From Chloroflexota bacterium (GTDB lineage: Bacteria > Chloroflexota > Anaerolineae > Aggregatilineales > Ch27), in NCBI GenBank assembly GCA_019873685.1, contig JAIOAT010000011.1, positions 19,353 to 83,352 on the forward strand: a stretch of 64,000 bases of DNA, given 5' to 3'. Under the pieces are notes generated by a model, which was given only the letters and a program-made list of their open reading frames with translations, searched no databases and was not told the DNA's origin. Shown in pieces: positions 9,074 through 37,267 of this stretch. Every line of letters begins with the position of its first letter. Within the stretch, counting starts at the first letter, position 1. A program made the translations under genes and the position numbers.

Positions 9074-9610
9074 TCACGGCTTGATCTCGATGTACTTCTT
9101 CCACGTATCCGGCCCGTGACTCATGGTGATGACGATATAGCTGGTGCGCGGGGTCTTTGGCTCCCAGCGCAGGCGCATCCCGGCCTCGCGATCAGTGCGG
9201 TCGCCTTTGCGGTGGTTACAGGCATAGCACGCGCAGGCCGTGTTGGTCCACGTATCCTTGCCGCCGCGGGAGCGGGGCACGATGTGATCGACGGTGAAAT
9301 CCTGTTTGCTCAGCAGCTTGCCACGGGGGGCATCTCCGGGCCGCGCCCCGCAGTAAATGCAGGTGTAATCGTCCCGCGCCAGTACCCCGCGCCGACTCCA
9401 TGCCGCATGACGGCGCGGCACATTGATGTATTGTTTGAGAGCGATGACGGATGGAACCGGAAATTCGCTGCGAACGCTGCGCAAAAAGCGCCCCGTCGCC
9501 TCGACCATCACGGCTTTATTGGCGATGAGCAGGTTGATCGCACGCGGCACGCTGATCACACACAGCGGCTCCCACGTGTTTCCGTTCAACAGCAAGACCT
9601 GCCCGTACAA
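9074..9610 (-). CDS. HNH endonuclease family protein
   Basis: CIYCGA..TVDHIVPRSRGG..NTACACYACNHRKGDR. Confidence 0.88.
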   Translation of the reverse strand: MYGQVLLLNGNTWEPLCVISVPRAINLLIANKAVMVEATGRFLRSVRSEFPVPSVIALKQYINVPRRHAAWSRRGVLARDDYTCIYCGARPGDAPRGKLLSKQDFTVDHIVPRSRGGKDTWTNTACACYACNHRKGDRTDREAGMRLRWEPKTPRTSYIVITMSHGPDTWKKYIEIKP

Positions 9611-9696
9611 CGATCACTCCTTCTCCCTCACGCGAACTCCACGTTTTACTATACATCCATTTTGTTCCGGCTGGCACAATTGCGCCGGAACCCGGA

Positions 9697-10926
9697 TCAA
9701 CGCCGGCGGCCTTTCTTGCCCTGTTTGCCCGACCGGCCCCCGCGCCGGCTCTTGTCCGGCGCCATCTTGACGATGCGCGGCTGGAATTCCGCCAGCGGCT
9801 CCACCAGATCGGCCTGGGCTTCCATCACGCGGTGGATGTCCTTGTAGGCGTAGGGGACTTCATCCAGACCGGCGGAGATCAGGTCGATCCGCTCCTGATC
9901 CAGCTTGCGGTCCACCTCCTCCCAGCTAAAACGGCGAATCGCCTCACCCCGGCTCATCTGACGACCAGCGCCATGGGCGGCGGAGTTGATGGCCTCCGCG
10001 CTGCCCTTGCCACGCACGATGTAGCCCGGCGCGCTCATGCTGCCGGGGATTACCCCCAGTGCTCCCGGCCCGGCGGGAGTGGCCCCCTTGCGGTGGACGA
10101 TAGCCTCCATGCCGTCGACCGTCTCCTTCCAGGCAAAGTTGTGGTGATTTTCCACACTGCCCAGCACCTCAAAGCGCAGGGCGTCAGCGATGCGTCGATG
10201 GATCACGGCATGGTTGGCGCTGGCGTAACGCCCGGCCAGCTCCATGATTGCCCAGTATTCATCACCCTCGCGGCCCAGTTCCAGCCAGGCCAGATTGAGG
10301 TAGTCCTTGGGCAGGCGGCCCTCATGCAAGCGTTTGGCGATCTGGGTGAAGTGGTTAGCCGCCTCAAAGCCAAAGCGCCGGCTGCCGCTGTGAGAAAGCA
10401 GGGCCAGGTAACTGCCGGGCGGAATGCGGTCGATCTTTTGCCAGACAGTCAGCGCCCCGAATTCAACGAAGTGGTTGCCTGCCCCGCTGGTGCCCAGTTG
10501 TCGCCAGGCCAGGTCGCGGCGCTCGCGGGCAAAGGGGATATCGCGCCAGGCAGGGTCATCCATGACCTCGTGGTGCTGGGGCGTCTCCCAGGTGGCGCCT
10601 TCGCCAAAGCGGGTGTTGTCCTCAATGGCCTGGCGCAACCGTTCGCGTTGCTCGTCGATGACGCGAGGGCTGGCATTGAAGATGGTCATCCGGACGCGGC
10701 AGGCGATATCCACGCCGACGGCGTAGGGGATCACGGCGTTGGCGGTCGCCAGCACGCCGCCGATAGGCAGGCCGTAACCGACATGCGCGTCAGCCATCAG
10801 CGCTCCGCGCAGGGCAATGGGTAGCCGGACGGCGCGCTCCATCTGCTGGATGGTCTCCGCGTCGATCTGGTCGCGGCCCCAGATTTTGTAAGGGACGGCG
10901 GTCTGCAGGTCATAAGGTTCGCTCAT
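9697..10926 (-). CDS. rtcB: RtcB-family RNA-splicing ligase
   Basis: DAHVGYGLPIGGVLAT, GVDIACRV, GNHFVEFG, HSGSRRFG, VENHHNFAW, HGAGRQMSR. Confidence 0.93.
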   Translation of the reverse strand: MSEPYDLQTAVPYKIWGRDQIDAETIQQMERAVRLPIALRGALMADAHVGYGLPIGGVLATANAVIPYAVGVDIACRVRMTIFNASPRVIDEQRERLRQAIEDNTRFGEGATWETPQHHEVMDDPAWRDIPFARERRDLAWRQLGTSGAGNHFVEFGALTVWQKIDRIPPGSYLALLSHSGSRRFGFEAANHFTQIAKRLHEGRLPKDYLNLAWLELGREGDEYWAIMELAGRYASANHAVIHRRIADALRFEVLGSVENHHNFAWKETVDGMEAIVHRKGATPAGPGALGVIPGSMSAPGYIVRGKGSAEAINSAAHGAGRQMSRGEAIRRFSWEEVDRKLDQERIDLISAGLDEVPYAYKDIHRVMEAQADLVEPLAEFQPRIVKMAPDKSRRGGRSGKQGKKGRRR

Positions 10927-30832: not shown

Positions 30833-30936
30833 GGTCTCATCTGCCCAGTTGCCTGGTCGGACTTGGCACCTACCCGGCGCTCCGGGGGTTGCCGCGGGTT
30901 CACAGGGCCGTTCCCTCCCCCGCTCGTGATGAGGCG
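30833..30936 (-). promoter_or_regulatory. SAM-I (S-box) riboswitch aptamer
   Basis: Minus strand CTCATCACGAG..GGGGGAGGGAACGGCCCTGTGAACCCGCGGCAACC..CCGGGTAGGTGCCAAGTCC..GATGAG, with P1 pairing CTCATC/GATGAG. Confidence 0.93.
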
Positions 30937-31117
30937 TAATGCCGCTCTATAAGGTTGTGCGGAGCATCGTAGCATACCTGAGCGAAGGCGTCAAGTTTTT
31001 TGTGCCGGTTCGGGTGTGGGCTACCTGACTTGAAGCCTCTGGCGCTTTGCGCCTATAGTGTATCCAGACCGGGGGTTGCCCGGCGCCGGGAATGGGGCGA
31101 AGGATGGAGGGCGGCCT

Positions 31118-34100
31118 GTGACAAGAGCAAGCAGGATCTGGGCGCGGCTCCGGTGGGCGGCTCTGGTGGCATGCCTGACCGGGTTAACGTTGCCGGTACT
31201 GGCCCAGGGGGACGGAACGCCGTCCGCGCAAGGGGTGCACGTGGTTGGCGGGATGGGGGGCCTCACGCGGGCGATGGTCGCGCTGCCCGATGGGGTACTG
31301 CTGGCGGAAGGCGATGCGCTCCTGCAGCTGGACGAGACGGGTAGAACGCTGCGGCGTGTGCAACCGGGGCGGGGGCAGGTGCAGGACCTGGCCGTGCATG
31401 GCGGAATGGTTTACCTGCTGACCGAACAGGGTCTGGCTCTGCTGGAGGTGACTGATCTGACGGAACGCAGCTTCCTCTCCGGTGGCGGGCAGGCGCTGGC
31501 TGTCAGCGATCTTGCCGTCTACGTGGCGGCCCGGCAGGCCGGAATCCGGGTTGCGGTGTTTGACCGGCGCGATGGCCTGCGCGGGCCGTGGCGCGAGATC
31601 GTGACCGCGGCTGCTGCTCGCGATTTGGCGGTTGATCCATCCGGGCGGGCGCTTTTTGTGGCGCTGGGCGAAGCTGGCGTGGCTCTCTACGATCTGGCTG
31701 ACCCCGCCCAGCCACGACTGGCGGCTCAACTGGCTGAGGCCGTACCGGCCCGCACAGTGACCATCGAGGCCGGGCGGCTGCTGGTCGGCTGCGACTACCG
31801 CCTGCTGATCTATGGCCTGACTGATCCGCTCATGCCGCGCCTGCTGAGCACGTACGACCCTCTCCATGATGGTGTCGATGTGTTGCTGCGCCGGGAATGG
31901 GCTTATGTCGCCGACCGCGCCAGTGGCCTGAAGCGCTACGCCGTCGCCGACCTGCGGACGGTGCGCCTGGTTGATGCAGTGTGGCCGGGGCCAGTCTATG
32001 CCCTGGCCGATGACGAGCGTTATGTCTACGCGGCGGCGGGTCGGGAGGGGGTGTTGCTCTTTGATGCCGGGCATCCTGATGCGCTGGCGTTGCGGGCGCG
32101 GGTAGCTCTCCCCGGACAGGCCGTGGCGGTTGCGCTGGGCGGAGACGCAGCCAATCGCTGGGTAGTCGCAGGGATGGCGGAGACCGGCCTGGCGGTGATT
32201 GACTGGCGGAACGCGGATCATCCTGTTGTGCGGGCGACGCTGGCGCTGGGGGGGACGGTGCGCGATCTGGCCGTGCGCGACGCGATCGGCGTGGCGGCGC
32301 TGGAAGAGGGCGAGGTTGTTCTGATCAGTCTGGCCCGGCGGGAGTCGCCGCGGATTATCGCCCGCCTGTCGCTTGGTGGGATGCCACAGGCGATTGCCGT
32401 TGATGGCGTGCTGGCTTATGTTGCCGCCGGGGAGGCCGGGCTGTATGTGCTGGATACGACTCGCCCGCTGGCTCCGATAGTGCTTGGCCACCTCCCACCG
32501 CCGCAGGAAGCCCCCTCAGTGACCGGCGTGACGCTGGAAGGCGGCAAGCGCCTTTACCTGAGCGCGGGTGCGGCGCTGGTCATCGTTGATGTGGACGCGC
32601 CGAACGATCCACAACCGCTGGCCATCCTCCCGATTCCGGCGCAAGCGACGGCGGCCCGCAACTTCATCGTCTATGCGGTGGGCGGCCCGGCTTTGACCAC
32701 GGTCAATGCGTCTTCCAGCAATGCGCCGGAAGTGCTGGGGCGTTACCTCGCCGTCGAGGCAATCCGCGCTGTTGCCGGGCGTGGCGATCGCGTCTGGCTG
32801 GCCGGGGAGGGTGCTGGCGCGGCTGCAGTGGGGCTGGCGCTGGATGCTGCTGGCAGGCCGCAGGAATTGCTGGCGGCAGGCCGGGGAGGTCAGGGGGCGG
32901 CATTGGACTGGATGGCGGACGGCACGCCGTTGCTGGCGCAATCCGATGGGACGCTGCTGCGGCTGGACGGGGCGAGGCCGGTGACGTTACGGATCGGGTT
33001 GTCGCCGGGACTGGCTCTGACTAGCGCCGGAGACGGGCAGCTGGCGCTGGGCGGGCAGGGCTGGGCTGTGCTGGATGTGGCTGACCCGTTGCGCCCGGTT
33101 GTCCTGCAAACAGGAGATGCGCCGGGTGGGATCGAGAGCGTGGTCAGCGCCGGGTCGACAACCTTTCTGGCGCTGGGTGAGCAGGGCATCCAGGCAGTCG
33201 GGGCGCGGGCAGGGCACTGGCAGCCCGATACCACCGCCGGAGCCACGCGCCAGCTGGCGGTTGAAGGCAGGTTCCTCTATGCAGCAGAAGACGGGCCAGG
33301 GCAGGGGGGAAGTCTGCGGGTCCTGGCGACGGATCCGCTGGGGACGGTGACAGCAGTGCCTCTGCCGGGGCCGGCGCAGCGCGTTGCCATCAGCGAGGGG
33401 CGAGCCTATGCAGGGTATCGGAACGGTGTGAACGGCGCGGGTGGGCTGGCGGTGATCGACGTGAGCGCGCCGACGGCTGGTCTGGAACTGGCCGGGCAGG
33501 TGGCAGTACCAGCGGACGATCTGGCGGTTTTGCCGGATGGCCGCATTGTTTACGGTGTGCACGGAACCACTTTGAGTGTGTTTGACGTGACTGCGTGGCC
33601 AACGCTGCGGATCGCCAGTACCGTCACATTGCCGGTTCCGGCGTCCCGGCTGGTCCTGCTGGATACCCGCTATCTGGCCGCCCTGCAACCCGGTCAGAGT
33701 GGCCTGTTGCTGGACCTGCGTGATCCCTGGCAGCCGATCCCGGTGGTGGCGCTGCCGGTTGGTGTGCTGGATGCTGCCGGAGGATCAGCGGCGCTGTACC
33801 TGGCTGCAGGTGATAGCGGTGTGCAGGTCGCATCGCTGGCGACGCTGGTCGATCTCCCGGCGCGATCAGTCACGTTCGATCCGGCTCCCGCGACGGCGTT
33901 GGGGGTGGCGGGCCGCTGGCTCTATGCCGTCGGCGGGGGGAAGCTGCGGCTGTATGATCTGACCGATCCGCTGGCTCCGGCGCTGGCGGCGTCTGTCGAC
34001 CTGCCGGGCACGGCGGCAGATCGGCTGGTGGTCCGTGAGACGCGCCGGGATGGCTGCTGGCTGTACCTGAGCGCGGCGGATGGCGTCCAGGCCGTTCACC

Positions 34101-35239
34101 ATGCGGCGGATGGTTCCCTGATCGGGCCGCTGCTGTTGGTCAACGGGAGCGGCCAACCGCTGGCAGCAGCGGAGTCCTGGCTATACCTGGGTGGTGCGGA
34201 TCGGGCGCTGTACGCTGCCCTGCTGGCGGATCCGGCGGCTATCGACTGGCGGATCGCTTACCCGCTGGCGGCAGGGCGTCCGCGGGCAGTGGCAGCCTGG
34301 GATAATCGTGTTCTGGTAGCGTCCGGGGAAGGTATCACCGCGTTGACGTGGGCGACAACGACCGCCAGGCCGCCGAGTTTGCTCAGCCTGCTGGAAGGGT
34401 TGCCCGCTGCGCCGCAGAGCCTGGTCACCGGGGAGGATCGCCTGTGGATGGCGGGCGAAGGGTTGCTCTGGCAGGTCGATGTTCGCGACCCTGCCGCGCC
34501 ATCGCTGGGCTGGACATTGAGTCTCCCTGGCGCGGGCGGCAGTCTGGCGGTGTTGCCGGAAGCCAGTCGGCTGGTGGTAGCCGCCGGGCAGTGCGGTCTG
34601 TGGCTGCTGGACGTGAGCGGGGAGTCGCCGCACATCGCTGGCTGGTGGCGCGGGGAGACTGTTGAGGCGGTGGCAGCCGTTGGCAAGACCGTGGCGGCGC
34701 TGGGGGAGGGCAGCCTGACGCTGTTGCAGGTGGAACCGGACGCCTCCGTGACTCTGCCGCTGGCGTCGGCTCCCTGGCCGCCGGATGGGGCAGTCGGGAT
34801 TGCCGGGGAGGCGCTGACCCTGCGCTGGGAACTGCCGCCTGAGCCGTGCAGCGCCTGGCGCTATGAGGTCTGGCTGGCCACTGGCGATGGTCCCTTTGTC
34901 CGGCTGGAGGCCGTCGAGGGCGCGCGGGTTGACGTCCCGGCGCTCCCGGCTGGCGTGGAAGTCACCTGGCGGGTCGATACGATCGCGGTATCGGGAGAAG
35001 TGCGAACAGGGTCGCCCTGGCGCTTTCAGACTGGCCCGCTGGCGACTGTGGAGTCTGGCAGTGTGCTGGCCCTGCCGGTTCTGGAAGCGACGCAGGTGCT
35101 GCAACCCGATCCCGGAGGTGTTCTAGCAGCAACGGGGCTGGATGCGCGGCAATTGCTCCCGGCGCTGGTTGGCGGCCTCCTGTTGGAAGCGGCGCTGGTG
35201 GTAGGGCTGCTGTGGTGGTGGCGGCGCGGGCGGCGCTGA
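31118..35239 (+). CDS. large secreted LVIVD/beta-propeller-like repeat protein with C-terminal TM anchor
   Basis: Signal peptide, many VYVAD/LRVLDVTDPLAP-type repeats, C-terminal LLPALVGGLLLEAALVVGLLWWWRRGRR; GTG start after GGAGGG. Confidence 0.85.
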   Translation: MTRASRIWARLRWAALVACLTGLTLPVLAQGDGTPSAQGVHVVGGMGGLTRAMVALPDGVLLAEGDALLQLDETGRTLRRVQPGRGQVQDLAVHGGMVYLLTEQGLALLEVTDLTERSFLSGGGQALAVSDLAVYVAARQAGIRVAVFDRRDGLRGPWREIVTAAAARDLAVDPSGRALFVALGEAGVALYDLADPAQPRLAAQLAEAVPARTVTIEAGRLLVGCDYRLLIYGLTDPLMPRLLSTYDPLHDGVDVLLRREWAYVADRASGLKRYAVADLRTVRLVDAVWPGPVYALADDERYVYAAAGREGVLLFDAGHPDALALRARVALPGQAVAVALGGDAANRWVVAGMAETGLAVIDWRNADHPVVRATLALGGTVRDLAVRDAIGVAALEEGEVVLISLARRESPRIIARLSLGGMPQAIAVDGVLAYVAAGEAGLYVLDTTRPLAPIVLGHLPPPQEAPSVTGVTLEGGKRLYLSAGAALVIVDVDAPNDPQPLAILPIPAQATAARNFIVYAVGGPALTTVNASSSNAPEVLGRYLAVEAIRAVAGRGDRVWLAGEGAGAAAVGLALDAAGRPQELLAAGRGGQGAALDWMADGTPLLAQSDGTLLRLDGARPVTLRIGLSPGLALTSAGDGQLALGGQGWAVLDVADPLRPVVLQTGDAPGGIESVVSAGSTTFLALGEQGIQAVGARAGHWQPDTTAGATRQLAVEGRFLYAAEDGPGQGGSLRVLATDPLGTVTAVPLPGPAQRVAISEGRAYAGYRNGVNGAGGLAVIDVSAPTAGLELAGQVAVPADDLAVLPDGRIVYGVHGTTLSVFDVTAWPTLRIASTVTLPVPASRLVLLDTRYLAALQPGQSGLLLDLRDPWQPIPVVALPVGVLDAAGGSAALYLAAGDSGVQVASLATLVDLPARSVTFDPAPATALGVAGRWLYAVGGGKLRLYDLTDPLAPALAASVDLPGTAADRLVVRETRRDGCWLYLSAADGVQAVHHAADGSLIGPLLLVNGSGQPLAAAESWLYLGGADRALYAALLADPAAIDWRIAYPLAAGRPRAVAAWDNRVLVASGEGITALTWATTTARPPSLLSLLEGLPAAPQSLVTGEDRLWMAGEGLLWQVDVRDPAAPSLGWTLSLPGAGGSLAVLPEASRLVVAAGQCGLWLLDVSGESPHIAGWWRGETVEAVAAVGKTVAALGEGSLTLLQVEPDASVTLPLASAPWPPDGAVGIAGEALTLRWELPPEPCSAWRYEVWLATGDGPFVRLEAVEGARVDVPALPAGVEVTWRVDTIAVSGEVRTGSPWRFQTGPLATVESGSVLALPVLEATQVLQPDPGGVLAATGLDARQLLPALVGGLLLEAALVVGLLWWWRRGRR

Positions 35240-35258
35240 GGGGCAACAAAACACCCGC

Positions 35259-35310
35259 CGCGGCGGGTGCTGGCAGCTCCACAGGTAGGACTCGAACCTA
35301 AAACCCATTG
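35259..35310. repeat. displaced copy of tRNA-Asn 3' end (putative att site)
   Basis: 52 bp direct repeat of 36282-36333 with 2 mismatches; flanked by terminator-like ACCCGCCGCGGCGGGTGTTTT on the minus strand. Confidence 0.9.
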
Positions 35311-35541
35311 ACGCGGACCCAGCGGAAGCACTTGTGAATGACGGGCGCTGCGGTCTTGTCAAGAAACCAAACGTAGGCAGGAGCAGTTTCGCAGTACGCT
35401 GTCGGTGCGCACCAAATGATTAGCATGCTGGGTGTGACGGATATTTTTTGTTTTGTCAATCCTTATTGCCATTAGACAGAACTTATGCTTAACTAAGAAT
35501 GTATACTGATTACTGAATAAGTTGTCAAGAAAGGTATCACT

Positions 35542-36081
35542 ATGAGACAACTAGCGCTTGTGATCTCGTTGCTGGTATTCCTGGTCTTCGGCGGCTCAAC
35601 ACTACTGGCTCAGGAGCCGCCCCTGGCCTGCAGCCAGGAAGACCTGACGGCCACTATTGAGGCCATCGCCGCATCGCTGGCAGATGCGCAGGCCGCACTG
35701 GCAAACGATCCAGCACGCGCTGTGATGTTGTTGCAAGGAGTGGGTCGCACTGCGGAGCGACAGCAAGCGGCGTGCTCCGGCCTTGCCTGGAGCGGTGAGG
35801 AGGACTTCAATAATATTGTCGAGGCAGAGCTGGAAAAGGGGGTTTACATCCTTGAATATGAGTTCACTGGCGCCGAAGGCCATGCGCTCGGTGGCATTAT
35901 GACTATTGGGTTCTCGAACTTGGTAGGAATTAGGAATCCGATGGGTCTATTGGAGATGAATGATCCTGGTGAGACTAGTTCCGGGCGCACGCGGATCAAC
36001 ATCTACGACAGTGGCCCGCATCTGATCGAGTTGGATATTTCTGGCACTAGTGCTTGGAAAGCATGGCTCTATAGACCGTAA
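35542..36081 (+). CDS. secreted hypothetical protein
   Basis: 179-aa ORF with signal peptide MRQLALVISLLVFLVFGGSTLLA; inside the island. Confidence 0.7.
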   Translation: MRQLALVISLLVFLVFGGSTLLAQEPPLACSQEDLTATIEAIAASLADAQAALANDPARAVMLLQGVGRTAERQQAACSGLAWSGEEDFNNIVEAELEKGVYILEYEFTGAEGHALGGIMTIGFSNLVGIRNPMGLLEMNDPGETSSGRTRINIYDSGPHLIELDISGTSAWKAWLYRP

Positions 36082-36227
36082 GGATCAAGTTCTGCCGAAG
36101 ATTCCGTCGCTTCTTGTGCTGGTGGCGAGGGAAATCTGCTGCATGGCGGACATCGATTACGGTGCTTTGGCCAAGATATTTTCCCAGCTATGAACATCAA
36201 AACGGAGAACTGCTGGGGAATCAACAT

Positions 36228-36291
36228 GGGCTACCCAGCTGAGGGTAGCCCGACGCTTTACCCGCCGCGATGCAGACGCATCGCGGCGGGT
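36228..36291. other. two perfect hairpins at the island/tRNA boundary
   Basis: GGGCTACCC/GGGTAGCCC (36228-36251) and 14-bp stem ACCCGCCGCGATGC/GCATCGCGGCGGGT (36260-36291). Confidence 0.8.
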
Positions 36292-36299
36292 GCTGGCAG

Positions 36300-36372
36300 C
36301 TCCACAGGTAGGACTCGAACCTACAACCCATCGGTTAACAGCCGATTGCTCTGCCGATTGAGCTACTGTGGA
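36300..36372 (-). tRNA. tRNA-Asn (GTT)
   Basis: Cloverleaf TCCACAG..AGCTCAATCGGCAGAGC..GGCTGTTAACC..GTAGGTTCGAGTCCTAC..CTGTGGA; anticodon at 36337-36339. Confidence 0.96.
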
Positions 36373-36739: not shown

Positions 36740-37267
36740 ATAGGCGCGACACAGTACCGCATAAATCAGGAAATTCGGGCTCGCGAGGTGCGCCTGATCA
36801 CGGAGGACAACGAGAACATCGGTGTCGTGCCCACCCGTGACGCCCTGGAACGGGCCATCCGCGTCGGCCTCGACCTGGTCGAGGTAGCTCCGAACGCGGA
36901 GCCGCCGGTTTGCCGGATCATGGATTTTGGCAAGTTCCAGTACGCCCGCGCTAAGAAGGAACGCGAAGCCCGCCGGCAGCAAAAGCAGATCGAGGTTAAG
37001 GAGATTCGGCTCCGCCCCAAGACCTCTGACCATCACCTGGAGATCAAGGTGCGCAGCGCGCGCCGCTGGCTGAGTGAAGGCATGAAGGTCAAGGTCCGCA
37101 TCCAGTTCCGCGCCCGCGAGATCACCTACCCGGAGATCGGGCGCGAGATGCTGGATCAGATCGCCGGGGCGGTGGACGACATCGCTATTGTGGAGCAGCA
37201 GCCCAGCATGGAAGGGGCAACCATGTTGATGGTGCTGGCTCCGTCACCGGACAAGAAAAAGAAGTAA
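36740..37267 (+). CDS. infC: translation initiation factor IF-3, probable AUA start
   Basis: (M)GATQYRINQEIRAREVRLITEDNENIGVVPTRDAL; frame closes upstream at TAG 36722-36724 with no ATG/GTG/TTG before GTG 36788; GAGGG at 36726-36730. Confidence 0.9.
   Translation: MGATQYRINQEIRAREVRLITEDNENIGVVPTRDALERAIRVGLDLVEVAPNAEPPVCRIMDFGKFQYARAKKEREARRQQKQIEVKEIRLRPKTSDHHLEIKVRSARRWLSEGMKVKVRIQFRAREITYPEIGREMLDQIAGAVDDIAIVEQQPSMEGATMLMVLAPSPDKKKK

Follow-up and report, generated by a model that had tools for sequence, protein, structure and literature searches.

Comparison with a sister species gives good support to the insertion of a DNA segment of about 1 kb, with both of its endpoints, at the tRNA-Asn gene of a Chloroflexota bacterium. 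The best explanation, which we consider fairly probable, is that the segment was gained by tRNA-targeted integration of the tyrosine-recombinase type. The insertion lies in a 64,000-nucleotide stretch (the window) of a 4.1-Mb draft genome in 109 contigs (G000), and the sister species (G001) belongs to the same genus. The features of the locus, in window coordinates, are as follows.

31058-35239, plus strand: flanking beta-propeller (LVIVD) gene, syntenic with G001.
35245-35269, minus strand: ancestral tRNA terminator, now on the outer side; palindrome CACCCGCCGCGGCGGGTG followed by TTTTGTT, with an identical hairpin after the uninterrupted tRNA-Asn of G001.
35259-35308, minus strand: outer (attR-like) copy of a 50-bp direct repeat, the displaced tRNA-Asn 3' end.
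35309-36281: inserted interior, absent from the same locus in G001.
35542-36081, plus strand: single intact cargo gene for a 179-aa predicted secreted protein with an N-terminal hydrophobic, signal-peptide-like start.
36228-36251, strand not assigned: second hairpin (stem of 9 bp), located in the stretch from the cargo gene to the tRNA.
36260-36291, minus strand: new hairpin (14-bp stem, 4-nt loop) that follows the intact tRNA, has no T-run and is absent in G001.
36282-36331, minus strand: inner (attL-like) copy of the repeat, the tRNA 3' part plus 17 nt past its end.
36299-36372, minus strand: intact tRNA-Asn (gtt), the target gene (ARAGORN; Rfam RF00005, 70.5 bits).
36788-37267, plus strand: infC-like flanking gene, a locus marker whose product is 99% identical in G001.

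The two copies of the direct repeat are identical at 49 of 50 positions with an offset of 1023 bp, and their longest exact run is 42 nt; the sole mismatch is A at 35301 against C at 36324. An earlier reading made without database searches (the sequence-only reading) had described 52 bp with two mismatches at the same offset, the inner copy being the 3' part of an intact tRNA-Asn, and re-measurement reproduced this (50/52), the stretch to 52 bp gaining the second mismatch. Read along the tRNA, the repeat starts with the final two anticodon-stem bases and takes in the variable loop and both the T and the acceptor arms, and its 3' edge reaches into the terminator. When the tRNA body was compared with the 10 kb downstream, the longest exact match was 25 nt, whereas 100 shuffles gave at most 12 nt. 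As no other tRNA in the genome shows such a repeat either, it is not a product of chance. The tRNA part of the inner copy is identical to that of G001, and only in the outer copy does the mismatch (35301) disrupt a T-stem pair. A functional inner copy and an outer copy with a broken T-stem pair are expected for a freed fragment, which favors integration. The displaced fragment lies downstream of the intact tRNA in the same orientation, and this agreement with published tDNA islands (PMC4383910) also argues for it.

In G001, one uninterrupted tRNA-Asn is followed by ACCCGCCGCGGCGGGTGTTTTATTG and then by the same beta-propeller gene. An uninterrupted tRNA with its terminator, which had been proposed as a check in relatives, was thus found directly beside that gene. 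The Blast blocks from the two insertion flanks have 50 bp of this empty site in common (L035 7208-7257), and in 200-bp steps the left flank is 84-89% identical to G001 and the right flank 83-97%. The att core occurs twice in G000 and once each in G001, G002 and G003. Both the 50 bp common to the two junctions and the two core copies versus one support integration at this site. The arrangement was sought in G001, G002 and G003 and is lacking in all three; the cargo gene is absent from G001 and G002, and G003 has a distant relative of it elsewhere. Vertical conservation of the arrangement and the gene, named beforehand as a ground for abandoning the insertion, was therefore not what these genomes showed. 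Given the single core in the three genomes, the simplest history, which is well supported, is that the window's lineage gained the segment once it had separated from G001. Precise loss in the other genomes instead of gain is possible and would need more events.

The terminator on the outer side consists of a 9-bp hairpin within the perfect palindrome, together with TTTTGTT, and its predicted energy is the same as in G001. The match with the sister genome bears out the suggestion that the outer copy keeps the original minus-strand terminator. The hairpin now found behind the intact tRNA was probably supplied by the inserted DNA, because it is absent in G001. Such a change behind the tRNA would follow from inserted DNA that carried a tRNA 3' end of its own together with a terminator-like hairpin. 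Farther out, a SAM riboswitch (RF00162, 82.9 bits; 30834-30935, minus strand) borders the left side of the beta-propeller gene and is oriented opposite to it.

The G+C content of the interior is 52.9%, as against 64.8% in the window and 63.0% in a 539-kb genome sample, and falls within the lowest 1.7% of same-size windows; the interior is thus AT-richer, as had been noted from the letters. Its one open reading frame of 179 aa with a signal-peptide-like start had been called an orphan secreted protein. The secretion signal still holds, but the protein is rare rather than orphan: two other Aggregatilineales genomes, G003 and G054, and no others gave full-length relatives (31-32% identity). With partial, weaker matches counted as well, 14 of 154 genomes of the order are matched, and relatives occur in Aggregatilineales and Anaerolineae (Chloroflexota) records. 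The unusual base composition of the interior and the patchy distribution of the cargo are in favor of integration. No family in Pfam, PHROG or NCBIfam scored above threshold, and phage and plasmid collections searched with the cargo protein and the interior DNA gave no match. The structure predicted from three sequences has two helices and a beta-sandwich (mean pLDDT 76.5, moderate). The folds that match it best, carbohydrate-binding modules and other domains of jelly-roll type, reach TM-scores of ~0.3-0.4 by query length, low enough that only a general fold statement is safe. From this model, we weakly infer that the cargo is probably a secreted binding protein with a jelly-roll-like domain. 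The relative in G003 (L038 6306-7576) lies near a contig end, ~0.7 kb behind a tRNA-Gly and beside a Cro/C1-type HTH regulator. No displaced end of a tRNA was seen at this place, and the same cargo at another tRNA was rejected as an interpretation. Arm-type integrase sites were likewise rejected: TTGTCAAGAAA occurs twice in the interior and is missing from the 539-kb genome sample, yet chance alone can produce an 11-nt repeat within 1 kb.

In the proposed mechanism, a segment of ~1023 bp would have been gained at the 3' half of tRNA-Asn after the split from the sister species. As a circle or in excised form, it would have undergone a site-specific crossover with the tRNA gene within the T-arm/anticodon-stem region of that gene. 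Since the segment would have come with a tRNA 3' end of its own plus a replacement hairpin, the tRNA stays whole. The displaced copy and the old terminator, an arrangement seen directly in the sequence, would have been left at the far side, the direction of the change being read from the empty site. As the repeat starts 3' of the anticodon loop, the crossover point is not pinned down. A tyrosine recombinase may have acted in trans or may since have been lost.

The sequence-only reading had likewise proposed tyrosine-recombinase integration, with the locus as either a remnant or a satellite mobilised in trans. Its insertion at tRNA-Asn with a displaced 3' end is strongly supported by the empty site in G001, whereas the recombinase as agent, and with it the choice between remnant and mobilisation in trans, is something we infer from the geometry of the junctions. 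The interior open reading frames include no integrase or recognisable integrase fragment, as had been stated from the outset. Four tyrosine recombinases (Pfam PF00589) are encoded in G000, all outside the interior; Xer-type models give them their highest scores, which stay under the curated cut-offs, and no tRNA was found within 6-16 kb around them. The att core, searched for elsewhere in G000 with up to 3 mismatches, occurs only at the two described sites, and the expectation that it might be found beside integrase genes elsewhere in the genome failed. These observations count against integration by a tyrosine recombinase, as does the length of ~1 kb, far below the usual island size. What remains would be a stripped island or else a minimal cargo element with one gene. 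Two of the Xer-like recombinases, on different contigs of G000 (L055 230-1138 and L056 7088-7999), are nearly identical and have large ATPase- or helicase-like genes downstream, possibly as mobile defence-type clusters.

The insertion could also be explained by a RecA-type single crossover, in which a small circle or concatemer carrying the tRNA 3' end and spacer would have entered via 50-bp homology. We regard this as unlikely. The repeat does include non-tRNA spacer, and one spacer base is common to both copies and different in G001, which indicates that the inserted copy came from this lineage or was later homogenised. This is less expected for an element from afar and, together with the failure to find a dedicated recombinase, suits a crossover that needs none. 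However, such a circle must already carry the tRNA-Asn 3' end, and the edge of the repeat lies within the tRNA, as in tDNA islands.

Somewhat less likely still is illegitimate insertion, by which a staggered break in the tRNA-Asn region would have been filled around a captured fragment to give a 50-bp target duplication. Single-gene differences beside tRNAs, with no displaced tRNA end, are common between the sister genomes, and this speaks for such an origin. The other examined insertions nevertheless lack a duplication of this kind, and the different hairpin right behind the tRNA is better accounted for by a supplied end. Known target duplications are much shorter than 50 bp, which we also count against illegitimate insertion. 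An artefact of assembly is very improbable. The genome is a draft for which reads are lacking, and repeats can mislead assemblers, but on either side of the insert synteny with G001 is kept (84-92% identity), the assembly contains the insert a single time, and a 50-bp repeat is rather short to break an assembly. A decayed second tRNA-Asn from tandem duplication, raised earlier as a way to explain the repeat, would suit its direct orientation and its tRNA sequence but can practically be dismissed, since the outer copy has no 5' half, its identity stops sharply at 35308 and it runs into the ancestral terminator and flank, with one core in each of G001, G002 and G003.

Integration targeted to tRNA genes by tyrosine recombinases is a known principle, and in tDNA islands a 3' fragment lies downstream of the intact tRNA in the same orientation; the Islander search for them requires an integrase and a length of at least 2 kb (PMC4383910). 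Like these islands, the insertion is bounded by an intact tRNA and a displaced 3' fragment in that orientation, with a foreign segment between them and an uninterrupted site in G001. Unlike them, it is 1023 bp long with no tyrosine integrase inside or overlapping, so that a standard tRNA-island search would discard it on both filters. With no integrase and about half the minimum length, it is not filed here as a full tDNA-island member. Tycheposons and phage satellites at tRNA sites also carry cargo beside a tRNA and may be mobilised by a helper, but tycheposons span 4-200 kb and the examined ones have a tyrosine recombinase (PMC10872708, PMC11389934), and the insertion has no satellite gene. 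Gene-turnover hotspots without an integrase resemble the insertion in holding accessory genes without mobility genes; in one study, only 45% of hotspots encoded an integrase (PMC5635113). They have been attributed there to homologous recombination in flanking core genes, which alone would not leave a 50-bp displaced tRNA end. The insertion is a small, well-mapped case of a kind already known, and nothing observed points to a new element family. Integron gene cassettes are not known to insert via a 50-bp tRNA repeat. The value of the locus is that an insertion is cleanly mapped against a sister-species empty site in a lineage known mostly from metagenome assemblies.

Downstream flanks, mostly of 9 kb and shorter at contig ends, were surveyed for 47 tRNAs of G000 and 45 of G001. 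A displaced tRNA 3' end was found at the tRNA-Asn of G000 only, and the only other long match was between two intact tandem tRNA-Thr genes. A recurrent class of small tRNA islands was rejected on this single case among the surveyed tRNAs of the two genomes. Across 154 genomes of the order, the tRNA-Asn core has many second matches with 2-3 mismatches and no clear second case; G067 has the core on two contigs (0 and 1 mismatch), both times near contig ends. We consider it improbable that Aggregatilineales harbor minimal elements of one gene that lack a recombinase, insert at the 3' ends of tRNAs together with a replacement terminator of their own and rely on a helper recombinase for movement. 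Further cases would make such very small cargo elements accessible to study as a class, which one case does not establish.

The 3' sides of tRNAs as insertion hotspots were also rejected. With contig ends left out, synteny breaks within ~75 bp were counted at five 3' sides versus four 5' sides, which is no clear enrichment. Because breaks are about as frequent on the 5' side, tRNA-linked differences are taken as ordinary gene turnover until shown otherwise. At tRNA-Asp (L082/L129), synteny between the two genomes stops one base past the tRNA and does not resume within 9 kb. One-gene segments at synteny breaks follow tRNA-Lys and tRNA-Leu in G000 and tRNA-His in G001. The segment behind tRNA-Lys (L083, G000:C13, 9031-11552) is ~2.5 kb with a UvrD-like helicase, and G001 has an unrelated ~0.3 kb there; that behind tRNA-Leu (L107, G000:C34, 9120-9765) holds a 145-aa gene, ferritin/Dps-like by eye, that is missing there in G001. 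The segment behind tRNA-His (L139, G001:C32, ~9151-10570) is ~1.3 kb, encodes a 4Fe-4S protein and is absent in G000. The ancestral terminator is found at the far end of this segment, the tRNA itself is followed by a different terminator hairpin, and the segment is a possible, weaker parallel without a tRNA fragment.
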